A stretch of DNA of 64,000 bases from Schaalia suimastitidis DSM 15538 (GTDB lineage Bacteria > Actinomycetota > Actinomycetes > Actinomycetales > Actinomycetaceae): contig NZ_AUBF01000006.1 of assembly GCF_000429105.1 (NCBI RefSeq), forward strand, positions 310,001 to 374,000. The letters run 5' to 3'. This document shows positions 3,152-64,000 of this stretch, piece after piece. The first letter of the stretch is position 1, and each line of letters begins with the position of its first letter. A model generated the notes under the pieces. That model saw nothing but the letters and a program-made list of their open reading frames with translations, searched no databases and was not told the DNA's origin. The position numbers were made by a program, and so were the translations under genes.

Positions 3152-3997
3152 ATGAACGCGCATCACCATCCCACTCGGCAACTGAATGACGGTGTGGATA
3201 TTCCACTGATCGGTCTGGGAACCTACATGTTGAAAGGCCCAGGTGGCATTGAGGCGATGCTCAGCGGCATTAACGTTGGCTACAGACTCCTTGACTCGGC
3301 ATTCAACTACGAAAATGAGGGCGCCCTCGGTCAGGTGGTACGCCGCAGTCCGGTATCGCGGGATGAACTGATCCTGGTTTCGAAGCTTCCTGGGCGCCGT
3401 CAACGCTATGACGAAGCGATCGCAACCGTGTACGAAAGCCTGTATCGTGCCGGTCTTGACTACTGGGACCTTTACCTGATCCACTGGCCGAATCCGCGGC
3501 AGGGCCTCTACGTCGAAGCATTCCAAGCCCTTGTTGATCTGCAACAAAAAGGCCTGATACGTTCAGTGGGTGTCTGTAATTTCCTGCCTGAGCACCTGAT
3601 GACCCTTCACCAGGAAACCGGGGTGATGCCCAGCGTTAACCAAATTGAATTACACCCGCATTTCAATCAGGCCAAGATGCGCGCATTTCACGCTGAACAT
3701 GGGATTGCCACACAGTCGTGGTCACCGCTCGGTCGTAAACTCGGGTTAGTCAATGATCTGACAATCCAGGCGTTGGCGGCCGAGGTGGGTGTCTCGCCTG
3801 CGCGTCTGATTTTGCGGTGGCATGTGCAACACGGCGCAATTCCTGTGCCGAAATCAGCTCACGAGGCGCGGCAAAGGGAAAACGCTGACGTCTTTAGCTT
3901 CGCTCTTACTCAGCAGCAAATGGACGCTATCGACGCATTGACCAGGCAAGACGGGCGTTCGGCAGGGCAAGACCCTGCCGTATATGAAGAGTTCTAA
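3152..3997 (+). CDS. Aldo/keto reductase (2,5-diketogluconate reductase-like)
   Basis: NADPH-dependent carbonyl reductase with a TIM-barrel fold. The complete catalytic tetrad can be placed: D48, Y53 (DSAFNYENEG), K78 (VSKLPG) and H111 (YLIHWPNP). The later NADPH-binding region IPVPKSAHEARQRENADV also fits the AKR5 group. Length 281 aa is normal. Substrate is unknown. The stop lies 3 bases from the stop of the convergent GNAT gene, so the two share a terminator region that is essentially coding sequence. Confidence 0.92.
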   Translation: MNAHHHPTRQLNDGVDIPLIGLGTYMLKGPGGIEAMLSGINVGYRLLDSAFNYENEGALGQVVRRSPVSRDELILVSKLPGRRQRYDEAIATVYESLYRAGLDYWDLYLIHWPNPRQGLYVEAFQALVDLQQKGLIRSVGVCNFLPEHLMTLHQETGVMPSVNQIELHPHFNQAKMRAFHAEHGIATQSWSPLGRKLGLVNDLTIQALAAEVGVSPARLILRWHVQHGAIPVPKSAHEARQRENADVFSFALTQQQMDAIDALTRQDGRSAGQDPAVYEEF

Positions 3998-4000
3998 AGC

Positions 4001-4453
4001 TTATTTGCCCAATGACATCCGGTAGACATTGGTTTCGCGTAACTCGAAGCCGCAGCGCCTGTACAGGCGGTTAGCTGCTTCACGTGACGGGCGCGATGTC
4101 AGATCCACTGTGAGTGCGCCAATCGTGCGTGCGTGGTCAAGGGCGGCCTCGACCAGCGCCTGGCCTGCGCCCTGGCCTCGTGCCTGGGAATCGACGACGA
4201 CATCTTCGACCCATGCGCGCACACCGGTGGGGATTTCAAAGGTGGCGAGTGACAACATGCCAAGGATGGGTGATACTTCGTCAGATTGATGCTCATCGGA
4301 GCGGAAGACGAAAAGGTATACCCCTGGCTGCGACACGAAACGTTGGGTTGCCTCGGCGTCCATTGGTTGTGCGCTGCGCGACAGCTGTGGAACGAGGCGC
4401 TCCATTGCTTCGACCAGTTCGGGGTGGTACTGGGTGACGAGTTCAACGGCCAT
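4001..4453 (-). CDS. GNAT family N-acetyltransferase
   Basis: Acetyl-CoA-dependent acyltransferase of unknown acceptor. The 150-residue protein has the GNAT core: VEDVVVDSQARGQGAGQALV (beta-4 and the pyrophosphate-binding R/Q-x-x-G-x-G/A loop at RGQGAG), then NRLYRRCGFE near the end. The start is ATG at 4453. It is separated from the upstream glycosyltransferase by a hairpin terminator, so it is probably independent. It could acetylate a small molecule or a protein N-terminus; the sequence does not say which. Confidence 0.88.
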   Translation of the reverse strand: MAVELVTQYHPELVEAMERLVPQLSRSAQPMDAEATQRFVSQPGVYLFVFRSDEHQSDEVSPILGMLSLATFEIPTGVRAWVEDVVVDSQARGQGAGQALVEAALDHARTIGALTVDLTSRPSREAANRLYRRCGFELRETNVYRMSLGK

Positions 4454-61268: not shown

Positions 61269-62255
61269 ATGGCAGGAAACGACGGGCGTCGAGGAGCGGT
61301 GCGTAAGCCCGGTTCGAAAAAAGGCGCCAAGGTAGGTACCGGCGGACATTCGAGGCGCCGCCTCGAAGGCAAAGGACCAACCCCCAAGGCCGAAGACCGC
61401 ACGTATCATCCGGCACATAAGCGTAAGCTTGCACGCGAAAAGCGTGAAGCGCAGGAAGCAGCCATTGCACGGGCACGGGCAAAATCGTCTATTAGAGTGC
61501 CTGAAGGGCATGAACTGATCGCTGGTCGCAATCCTGTTGCCGAGGCGGTGCGCGCCAAGGTGCCTATTGAACGTGTCTTCGTGGCGGGTAACATCAAAGA
61601 TGACCGGGTTGAGGAGGTCGTTCGTCTTGCCTCGGCCATGGGTGCGCCTGTTTTTGAGGTGACGCGACGTGACTTGGATGTGGCAACCGATGGTGCGGTT
61701 CACCAAGGCGTGGCCGTGGAGGTACCCGCCTACGAATATGCCGATGTCGCCGATCTTATCGCTGATTCTCAACAGCAAATTGACTTGCCGTTACTGCTGG
61801 CTCTTGATCAGGTCACTGACCCGCATAACCTGGGCGCTGTCTTGCGCAGTGCAGGGGCTTTCGGTGGCGACGGCGTTATTATTCCCGAGCGTCGAAGCGC
61901 AGGGGTAACGACGACAGCCTGGAAGGTATCAGCAGGTGCAGCCGCACGTGTGCCTGTGGCGCGCGTGACGAATCTTGTGCGGGCCTTAGAAGACTGCAAA
62001 CGTGCGGGGTTCTTTGTTGTGGGCCTCGATGGTGGCGGTGACGCACAATTGCGCGACATGGAGTTGGCGCACTCTCCTTTAGTGGTCGTCACCGGCGCTG
62101 AAGGCAGTGGCCTGTCGCGCCTCGTCAGGGAAACGTGTGACCATATCGTGTCTATCCCTATCGCTTCGGCAGTAGAGTCACTCAATGCGGCGGTCGCGAC
62201 CGGTATTGCCTTGTATGAGGTTGATTCGCTGCGTCGCGCGGTACGTGAAGGCTGA
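61269..62255 (+). CDS. rlmB: 23S rRNA 2'-O-methyltransferase (SpoU family)
   Basis: Methylates the ribose of a 23S rRNA guanosine (G2251 in E. coli). 328 aa: an N-terminal basic extension (about 75 residues, Lys/Arg-rich, GSKKGAKVGTGGHSRRR), an RNA-binding lead-in GRNPVAEAVRAKVPIERVFV, and the knotted SPOUT domain with ALDQVTDPHNLGAVLRSA, VVTGAEGSGLSRLVRETCD and IPIASAVESLNAAVATGI. GGGAGGCAG precedes the ATG. Confidence 0.93.
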   Translation: MAGNDGRRGAVRKPGSKKGAKVGTGGHSRRRLEGKGPTPKAEDRTYHPAHKRKLAREKREAQEAAIARARAKSSIRVPEGHELIAGRNPVAEAVRAKVPIERVFVAGNIKDDRVEEVVRLASAMGAPVFEVTRRDLDVATDGAVHQGVAVEVPAYEYADVADLIADSQQQIDLPLLLALDQVTDPHNLGAVLRSAGAFGGDGVIIPERRSAGVTTTAWKVSAGAAARVPVARVTNLVRALEDCKRAGFFVVGLDGGGDAQLRDMELAHSPLVVVTGAEGSGLSRLVRETCDHIVSIPIASAVESLNAAVATGIALYEVDSLRRAVREG

Positions 62256-62367
62256 GCGGGTTCGGCCCGTCTGTGTGTTGCGCACAACCGAAGTGGCGGC
62301 TCAATTTGCTGCGTGATGCCCCTGGTGAAGGGCCAAGGCGAGGTGGAGCCGTGGGCAACATATACAT

Positions 62368-62450
62368 TGACGTCACCTTTCGCCTAGAATCCTCTAGGTA
62401 GAACCACCGTTCTGCTCGCATCCGGACAGCAACTGCCGGTGCGGAAACGG
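62368..62450 (+). promoter_or_regulatory. purA leader and candidate promoter elements
   Basis: TAGAAT (62385-62390) fits a -10 element but no good -35 is seen. It lies inside an inverted repeat CCTAGA-ATCC-TCTAGG (62383-62398). TGACGTCA (62368-62375) is a perfect 8-bp palindrome just upstream, and TGCCG/CGGCA (62432-62450) makes a small leader hairpin. Weak evidence overall. Confidence 0.35.
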
Positions 62451-62468
62451 CAACACAGGAGAGCCATC

Positions 62469-63752
62469 ATGCCAGCGGTGATCGTACTCGGAACTCAATG
62501 GGGTGACGAGGGTAAAGGCAAGGCAACAGATCAACTGGGCCAACGTACCGACGTCGTTGTGAAATTCAATGGCGGTAATAATGCCGGGCATACGGTGGTT
62601 GTTAACGGCGAAAAATACGCATTGCACTTGCTGCCTGCGGGTATCCTCTCTGAAGGTGTCACCCCGGTTATTGGCAATGGTGTTGTTGTTGACCTTGAGG
62701 TGCTCTTTGAAGAGTTGGCTGAGATGGAGCGTCGTGGGGTTGACGTGTCTCGTTTGCTTATTTCAGCAAATGCCCACATTATTCCCTCGTATAACCGTGT
62801 GATGGACCGTGCCACCGAAAAATCCTTGGGTGAACGCCAAATTGGCACCACGGGGCGTGGTATTGGACCAACCTACGCTGACAAGATGAACCGTATTGGT
62901 CTGCGTATTCAAGACCTTTTCGATGAGTCGATTCTGCGGCAAAAAGTCCGCAGCGCCCTTGTGGGGAAGAATACGACGCTTGAAGCACTCGGTGGCACTG
63001 CTATTGACCCTGAGACAGTGATCGCTGAATTGCTGTCATATGTTGAGCGGGTGCGACCAATGGTGGTGGATGCGTCGCTGGTGGTCAACGACGCGTTGGA
63101 TAACGGCAAAATGGTCCTCTTTGAAGGTGGCCAGGCCACCATGCTTGATATTGATCATGGCACGTACCCATTCGTTACCTCGTCAAACCCGACCGCTGGT
63201 GGCGCCCTTACCGGCACAGGAGTTGGGCCGACGCGGATTGATGCTGTGGTGGGTGTGGCGAAGGCGTATACGACGCGCGTTGGGGAGGGGCCTTTCCCCA
63301 CGGAACTTACTGACGAGGTGGGTCAGGCTTTGCGTGAAAAAGGTGGCGAATTTGGTGTCACCACGGGTCGCCCACGGCGCTGTGGCTGGTTTGATTCGGT
63401 CGTGGTTCGGTATTCCACCAGGATTAATGGCTTGACGGATATCTGCCTGACGAAGCTCGACGTCCTTACCGGGTATGAAACTATCCCTGTGTGTGTCGCC
63501 TACGAGGTTGACGGTGTACGCATGGATGAAATGCCGATGGATCAAAGTTCTTTCCACCATGCAGCGCCAATTTACGAGGAGCTGCCGGGTTGGATTGAAG
63601 ATATTTCCGATGTGCGTCGCTTTGAGGACCTGCCGACGAACGCGCAAGCCTATGTGTTGCGCCTTGAGGAGTTGTGTCGCTGCCGCATTTCCTCTATTGG
63701 TGTGGGTCCGGGTAGGGAAGCAACAATCGTGCGTATGCCTATCGCCGACTGA
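62469..63752 (+). CDS. purA: Adenylosuccinate synthetase
   Basis: First committed step from IMP to AMP, GTP-dependent. [19 protein letters not shown] (catalytic Asp and P-loop), [11 protein letters not shown] (catalytic His), [17 protein letters not shown] and [16 protein letters not shown] are intact. 427 aa. The ATG at 62469 follows CAGGAGAG; the upstream open frame is spurious. Monocistronic, ended by the hairpin at 63757-63786. Confidence 0.97.
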
Positions 63753-63756
63753 GCAG

Positions 63757-63786
63757 GTAGTGCACCACACCCGGTGGGAGCACTAC
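63757..63786 (+). terminator. Hairpin after purA
   Basis: GTAGTGC/GCACTAC (63757-63763 and 63780-63786) with a nested CCAC/GTGG stem (63765-63768 and 63774-63777), 4 bases past the stop codon. No U-run. Confidence 0.65.
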
Positions 63787-63816
63787 AGGTGTGCGGCTGT
63801 ACTGCCAGCAAGGGCA

Positions 63817-63926
63817 GGGTCGTGACACAGCTAAGGCGAAGTATGTGACACCGAGCCGGAAGCGCCTGTCGGCGCGAAGGCCGCTCGTAGCGGCAGAGTT
63901 TGGAGCCCGGGGCTTACCGACTCGGT
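63817..63926 (+). promoter_or_regulatory. Candidate structured leader RNA (riboswitch-like)
   Basis: GGGTCG (63817-63822) can pair with CGACTC (63918-63923). Enclosed are ACCGAG/CTCGGT (63850-63855 and 63921-63926, competing with the first pairing), and three hairpins: GCGCC-TGTC-GGCGC (63862-63875), GCCGCT-CGT-AGCGGC (63880-63894) and AGCC-CGG-GGCT (63904-63914). GGGTCGTGAC at its 5' end matches the opening motif of ZTP (pfl) riboswitches, but the usual 3' motif is not seen, so identity is open. Confidence 0.4.
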
Positions 63927-63992
63927 GGTCTACCCATCATACGGCCATTGTGTAAATACCGCTCAATTGCACAGTGTGGGAGGATTAAGCCT

Positions 63993-64000
63993 GTGGAACA
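63993..64000 (+). CDS. Start of a gene leaving the window
   Basis: GTG at 63993 preceded by a strong ribosome site GGGAGGA (63978-63984) at 8 bases. Only the first codons are visible, so the product cannot be named. The preceding 65 bases separate it from the structured leader candidate. Confidence 0.5.

Follow-up and report, generated by a model that had tools for sequence, protein, structure and literature searches.

The window analysed here is a stretch of 64,000 nucleotides from Schaalia suimastitidis. Near its end, a spacer separates purA from a gene of about 325 amino acids that runs past the last letter. The spacer carries a conserved, predicted RNA on the minus strand, and the genes and features at the locus are as follows:

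62469-63752, plus strand: purA (PF00709, E 9.4e-182), converging on the RNA
63817-63826, plus strand: the ten bases GGGTCGTGAC, outside the RNA and not conserved
63838-63931 (G000:C2:373838-373931), minus strand: match of covariance model R1
63845-63930, minus strand: small RNA core (fold z-score, family BLAST, R1 match, covariation)
63849-63857, minus strand: outer helix, 3' strand (alignment A1, RNAalifold, fold)
63862-63875, minus strand: hairpin 3, GCGCC-GACA-GGCGC (alignment A1, fold)
63880-63894, minus strand: hairpin 2, GCCGCU-ACG-AGCGGC (alignment A1, fold)
63901-63908, minus strand: GGGCUCCA, pyrimidine-rich strand 3' of hairpin 1, possible pairing segment
63904-63914, minus strand: hairpin 1, AGCC-CCG-GGCU (alignment A1, fold)
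63919-63927, minus strand: outer helix, 5' strand (alignment A1, RNAalifold, fold)
63930/63929, minus strand: predicted RNA start
63936-63941, minus strand: putative -10 box TATGAT, read from the letters
63993-64000, extending past the window, plus strand: start of the gene of about 325 amino acids, divergent from the RNA

The gene at 63993 begins with a GTG behind a GGAGG-like site, in agreement with the gene start and ribosome site described in an earlier note on this DNA. Its product appeared hydrophobic by eye and matched no Pfam family. It opens a plus-strand run in which it is followed by a THAP4-like gene and then by a gene with a GCV_T domain (YgfZ-like). No convincing -35 element was seen upstream of the TATGAT box. 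Over positions 63700-64000, a sigma-70 consensus scanner found no promoter and a terminator scan found no terminator. An imperfect inverted repeat, GTAGTGC...GCACTAC, occurs at 63753-63815 after the purA stop, without a T-run, and may terminate purA transcription.

Read on the minus strand, positions 63845-63930 give a four-way junction with a folding energy of -45.4 kcal/mol (z -4.54), a stability that none of 200 shuffles matched. The architecture consists of an outer helix of 9-11 bp enclosing three short hairpins within about 85 nt. In the window copy the outer helix has nine pairs, the two outermost of the eleven pairs in the model being broken. The plus strand of 63810-63935 folded at about the level of chance (z -0.62), with 54 of 200 shuffles as good, and the plus strand of the whole spacer folded somewhat above its shuffled versions (z -1.87; 6 of 200 as good). 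When the paired alignment columns were read as minus strand, G-U/U-G combinations filled 83 cells versus 8 for A-C/C-A, an excess that assigns the RNA to the window's minus strand. The conserved RNA is the minus strand, and its fold is the four-way junction. The earlier note had described a plus-strand leader with three tight hairpins inside two competing long-range helices. The hairpins and a long enclosing helix (63849-63857 with 63919-63927) are present, and the suspicion of a structured RNA, perhaps of a new class, was right. The strand was wrong, and the leader fold itself fails on the plus-strand values and on the opposite direction of the conserved RNA.

BLAST of the spacer against the window's family matched 193 of 200 genomes and 35 of 36 genera. 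Among the matches listed, the window itself aside, the core lay within spacer positions 81-193 and was centred on about 95-175, corresponding to 63847-63927 of the window. The conserved part spans about 80-96 nt, and in the printed flanks from this family the sequence on either side differs from genus to genus. Alignment A1 was built from the window's family and comprises 56 of 63 distinct sequences, drawn from 70 loci, without fitting to a model. In A1, 36 of 104 columns are invariant, GCCCCGGGCUCCA included. RNAalifold on A1 returned an outer helix of 11 pairs and hairpins of 3, 5, and 5 pairs, with two-sided changes in 10 of the 24 pairs.

Relatives from other orders were added in alignment A4 (58 rows), which was fitted to model R1 from 57 of 60 sources (without L112, L125, and L126) under a stricter cut-off. 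Alignments A2 and A3, which contained four and two antisense rows respectively, were left out of the counts. In A4, which leans towards R1 because it was fitted to it while A1 is free of that lean, 98.5% of cells pair, versus 34-49% in slid-partner controls. Two-sided changes were found in 15 of 24 pairs, among them all 11 of the outer helix. They amounted to 150 cells compared with a shuffled mean of 27, and none of 500 shuffles attained any of the five measures. Pairs that never vary in A4 accounted for 0 of 11 in the outer helix and for 7 of 13 in the three hairpins.

Across the order, model R1 matched 244 of 248 genomes and 84 of 85 genera. Of the genomes without a match, four in all, two measure 0.8-0.9 Mb and two are 75-76% complete. 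At the level of the class, 140 of 246 genomes were matched by R1 (E<=0.01) and 144 of 242 by model R2 (E<=0.001), the remaining 98 of 242 being without a match for R2 at this cut-off. A draw of 296 genomes from the phylum gave 23 matched genomes, 21 of them inside the class, with about three chance matches expected at the cut-off used. The two outside the class, G668 and G820, were weak (E 7.6e-4 and 0.005), and with letters unlike the RNA they were unconvincing as true copies. Within genus g114, the RNA was matched in G473, G566, and G601 and was not found in G429, G490, and G505, which came from the phylum draw. In named genomes, an exact pattern recovered at least 119 stretches, with Streptomyces, Kitasatospora, Nocardia, Rhodococcus, and Mycobacterium/Mycolicibacterium among the matches listed.

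The region upstream of the RNA was surveyed in 269 instances, of which 259 had 60 nt of upstream sequence and were distinct; the counts of TANNNT boxes and terminators used 258. A TANNNT box at the expected distance occurred in all 66 copies of the window's family and in 125 of 192 others, while single-base shuffles reached 9.7%. The pattern GGAA[TC]-N15..19-GTT was present upstream of 112 of the 259 copies, versus 0.22% of shuffles. With the spacer fixed at 18 (GGAA[TC]-N18-GTT), 62 of 259 copies carried it, compared with 46 of 53,734 background windows tiled over the same loci with the RNA site included. The SigR/SigH consensus is GGAAT-N18-GTT, and SigR/SigH is the ECF sigma factor of thiol-oxidative stress.

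The spacer-18 box was found in none of the 66 copies of the window's family, in 17 of 38 rows not listed by name, and in 10 of 75 other order/class loci. Among the named loci, whose counts are not independent because an exact pattern was used to select them and Streptomyces is abundant in the set, it occurred in 7 of 8 Mycobacterium/Mycolicibacterium, 8 of 13 Nocardia, 2 of 3 Rhodococcus, and 0 of 4 Kitasatospora copies, and in 18 of 52 Streptomycetaceae rows (42 of 52 when spacers of 18-19 were allowed). Most of the Streptomyces, Nocardia, and Mycobacterium copies examined thus carry a SigR/SigH-like promoter, instead of or beside the TANNNT box. Many Streptomyces copies with the SigR-like box also have a TANNNT box, so that dual control is possible. 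In family f38 (L101, L103-L108, L110, L111, L114, L118, L119), a conserved GGTAGTTTC..TACTGGCGACAGCC-like stretch upstream of the RNA replaces both promoter types.

RsrA (TIGR03988), an anti-sigma factor, was matched in 19 of 23 genomes tested, in 17 of them above the cut-off. It was not found in the window's genome, in G139 of the same genus, or in G248 and G366, and the latter two were also without the RNA. Two of six genomes tested from the window's family, the window's own included, thus had no detectable RsrA. The link to SigR is not strict, since RsrA is present in G429, G490, and G505, where the RNA was not found.

Rfam 15 gave no row at the gathering score at the RNA in the window, L002, parts of L044, L130, and L218, and 14 whole loci. 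The best sub-threshold rows there were for Thr_leader, with 29.5 bits of the 55 required in L130 and 26.2 in L218. A literature search covering mainly open-access papers found no description of the RNA family among the matches listed. L130, a Streptomyces-like locus, has the RNA flanked by a UvrD-like helicase gene, which we take to be HelD, and a downstream malic enzyme gene, all on the same strand. The same two neighbours are presumably encoded by SCO2951 (malic enzyme) and SCO2952 (HelD-type helicase). By the naming rule in the accessible part of PMC11077062, a part that does not itself name scr2952, this small RNA of Streptomyces coelicolor (Vockenhuber 2011, as given in the accessible part of PMC8388888) is expected between SCO2951 and SCO2952. 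With these presumed spacer neighbours matching those in L130, the Streptomyces copy of the RNA may be this catalogued transcript. The accessible text of PMC8388888 places scr2952 in Rfam and mentions its conservation within Streptomyces only, yet no such Rfam 15 row appeared at the RNA in L130 or in Streptomyces tendae (L218). Rfam families RF02826, RF02827, RF02829, and RF02825 are Scr6925, Scr6106, Scr4115, and LPR17, and none of them is Scr2952.

Other known RNAs resemble the family in part. The 6C RNA is also a small actinobacterial RNA with C-rich parts, but it has two C-loop hairpins in place of a four-way junction, and the locus gave no Rfam match. Ms1/scr3559 and 6S RNA are likewise stand-alone structured RNAs of actinobacteria; at about 190-300 nt they are larger than the RNA described here, which has about 85 nt, a four-way junction, and no Rfam match. 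The portion of PMC9130861 that we could consult gives about 230 nt for Ms1/scr3559 in S. coelicolor and reports no fit for Ms1 at the syntenic place in Actinomyces and Bifidobacterium. The outline recalls the cloverleaf of a tRNA, a candidate that was rejected: at the site of the RNA, ARAGORN called neither a tRNA nor a tmRNA in L003, L044, L130, L131, and L218, and the Rfam tRNA model found tRNAs elsewhere in L131 and L137 and none at the RNA. An 'ncRNA-66' of Actinomyces/Rothia is mentioned in the accessible part of PMC7160235, where it is given without letters, so it could not be compared with the RNA.

We consider it probable that the locus encodes a stand-alone RNA of about 85 nt on the minus strand, with its own promoter, belonging to a family with a four-way junction that is widespread in the class and acts in trans; its transcription as a separate unit and its action in trans are what we infer from the computed features. 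The transcript would begin at the outer helix or immediately upstream of it, from a promoter that is housekeeping-sigma-like in the window's family and, in most of the copies examined from Streptomyces, Nocardia, and Mycobacterium, SigR/SigH-like. Three near-invariant hairpins would be closed by an outer helix that covaries freely. In the mechanism that we favour, a conserved partner, which could be a protein, RNA polymerase, or the ribosome, would recognise the fixed junction and hairpins as one unit. The RNA might then serve as a scaffold or decoy and tune gene expression, and more so under stress where the promoter is of the SigR type. An outer helix that is free to change, together with hairpin stems and loops that are fixed, is easier to reconcile with a recognising partner than with plain antisense pairing. 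Binding of a partner rather than antisense pairing is a conjecture to which we would give somewhat less than an even chance.

More tentatively again, the family may be an unrecognised riboregulator of actinomycetes, present throughout the class and recognised by a partner through its four-way junction. It would then belong to the SigR/SigH thiol-stress response of Streptomyces, Nocardia, Rhodococcus, and mycobacteria, while the window's family would have it under housekeeping control. Stand-alone bacterial small RNAs are a known kind, and this family had no Rfam 15 match at the places scanned. Its near-universal presence in the sampled genomes of one order, the strong covariation, and the thiol-stress-type promoter in part of the class make it a candidate for a core regulatory RNA. 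Antibiotic producers (Streptomyces) belong to the class, as do nocardiae, rhodococci, and mycobacteria.

A stand-alone RNA could also act as an antisense regulator, a possibility that we regard as rather doubtful. The pyrimidine-rich stretch that follows hairpin 1 (CUCCA, UCCCA, or similar) would then pair with purine-rich ribosome-binding sites, as has been proposed for C-rich actinobacterial small RNAs such as 6C. The GGGCUCCA segment is invariant across the 56 rows of A1 and varies in most other relatives, where the changes are mostly between C and U and are compatible with G-rich pairing. The hairpin stems, however, are near-invariant too, and pairing through a loop needs no fixed stems.

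The neighbours of the RNA were read from a gene table produced by a simple ORF caller, which is often in the wrong frame in high-GC DNA, and genes were named only where the protein had been checked with Pfam or clustered with such a protein. A gene of the DUF47 type was located within about 1.3 kb downstream on the strand of the RNA in 17 of 41 loci from the window's family, and elsewhere in the locus in three more. In L036, which was checked with Pfam, a gene for a PHO4 phosphate transporter comes next after the DUF47 gene. Terminator-like hairpins occurred 3' of the RNA in 5 of 66 copies of the window's family and in 64 of 192 others, with none in shuffles of either set. A riboswitch or attenuator acting in cis on the downstream gene of the same strand could draw on the DUF47 and PHO4 genes, on the malic enzyme gene of L130, and on the hairpins of the non-family copies, and a cis role is possible in some lineages given the DUF47 and malic enzyme genes. 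As an explanation of the RNA it is nevertheless unlikely, as the gene downstream is convergent with the RNA in the window and opposes it in L034, L050, L129, L135, and L142, and these neighbours are unrelated to one another: purA in the window, and a symporter, an ABC ATPase, a nitroreductase, an aldo/keto reductase, and AIRS, respectively, in the other loci. While purA is the next gene downstream on the path of the RNA, it is convergent, and the RNA therefore cannot be a purA leader. Since the neighbours vary and some converge, a stand-alone small RNA is most likely, and not a leader.

A gene order recurs around the RNA in loci of the window's family such as L036, L046, and L065, where one side of the RNA carries divergent C4, THAP4-like, YgfZ-like, and D-Tyr-tRNA-deacylase-like genes. 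The other side carries DUF47 and a phosphate transporter, and in the window purA stands there.

It is very improbable that the locus is a palindromic DNA repeat or a mobile element with no function as RNA. Because the hairpins come close to being palindromes, the model also gives weak matches to some antisense strands, and tandem copies occur in L216 (Nocardia abscessus; 3917-4035, 88 nt apart) and in L141 (5001-5279, 182 nt apart). Most matched genomes, however, have a single copy, the G-U pairs are strand-specific, and the promoter-like box keeps a constant spacing on one flank. The RNA had no match on plasmids and, for one strict pattern, none in IMG/VR. Families f14 and f47 have two to four copies of the RNA in some genomes.

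A ZTP-type or other plus-strand leader has practically no chance of being correct, because the RNA lies on the other strand together with its G-U pairs, the plus-strand fold is poor, and no Rfam model matched. The earlier note had taken GGGTCGTGAC for the motif of ZTP (pfl) riboswitches; the ten bases are indeed present on the plus strand, but they are not conserved, occurring exactly in only one of 66 copies of the window's family, the window itself. With up to two mismatches they occur in 12 of 66, and about 11 were estimated by chance. On both strands of 61500-64000, with E up to 10, there was no match to RF01750, and Rfam returned only two sub-threshold rows, 61691-61731 and 63493-63520, outside the spacer. 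The proposed control of a purine or folate gene found no footing in the gene at 63993, which is without a Pfam family and runs opposite to the RNA. A faint link to folate exists through the GCV_T (YgfZ-like) domain in the third gene of the plus-strand run.

Two records labelled as phage match the RNA, MT835541 and MT838127. The former (L275, MT835541.1:24665-36720) is of human-fecal origin and is labelled 'UNVERIFIED: Bacteriophage sp.'. Judged by eye, its ORFs look like those of a sugar-binding lipoprotein, a regulator of the ROK type, DUF47, a phosphate transporter, and phosphoglucomutase. They resemble a piece of chromosome, and the record is probably a mislabelled bacterial contig.
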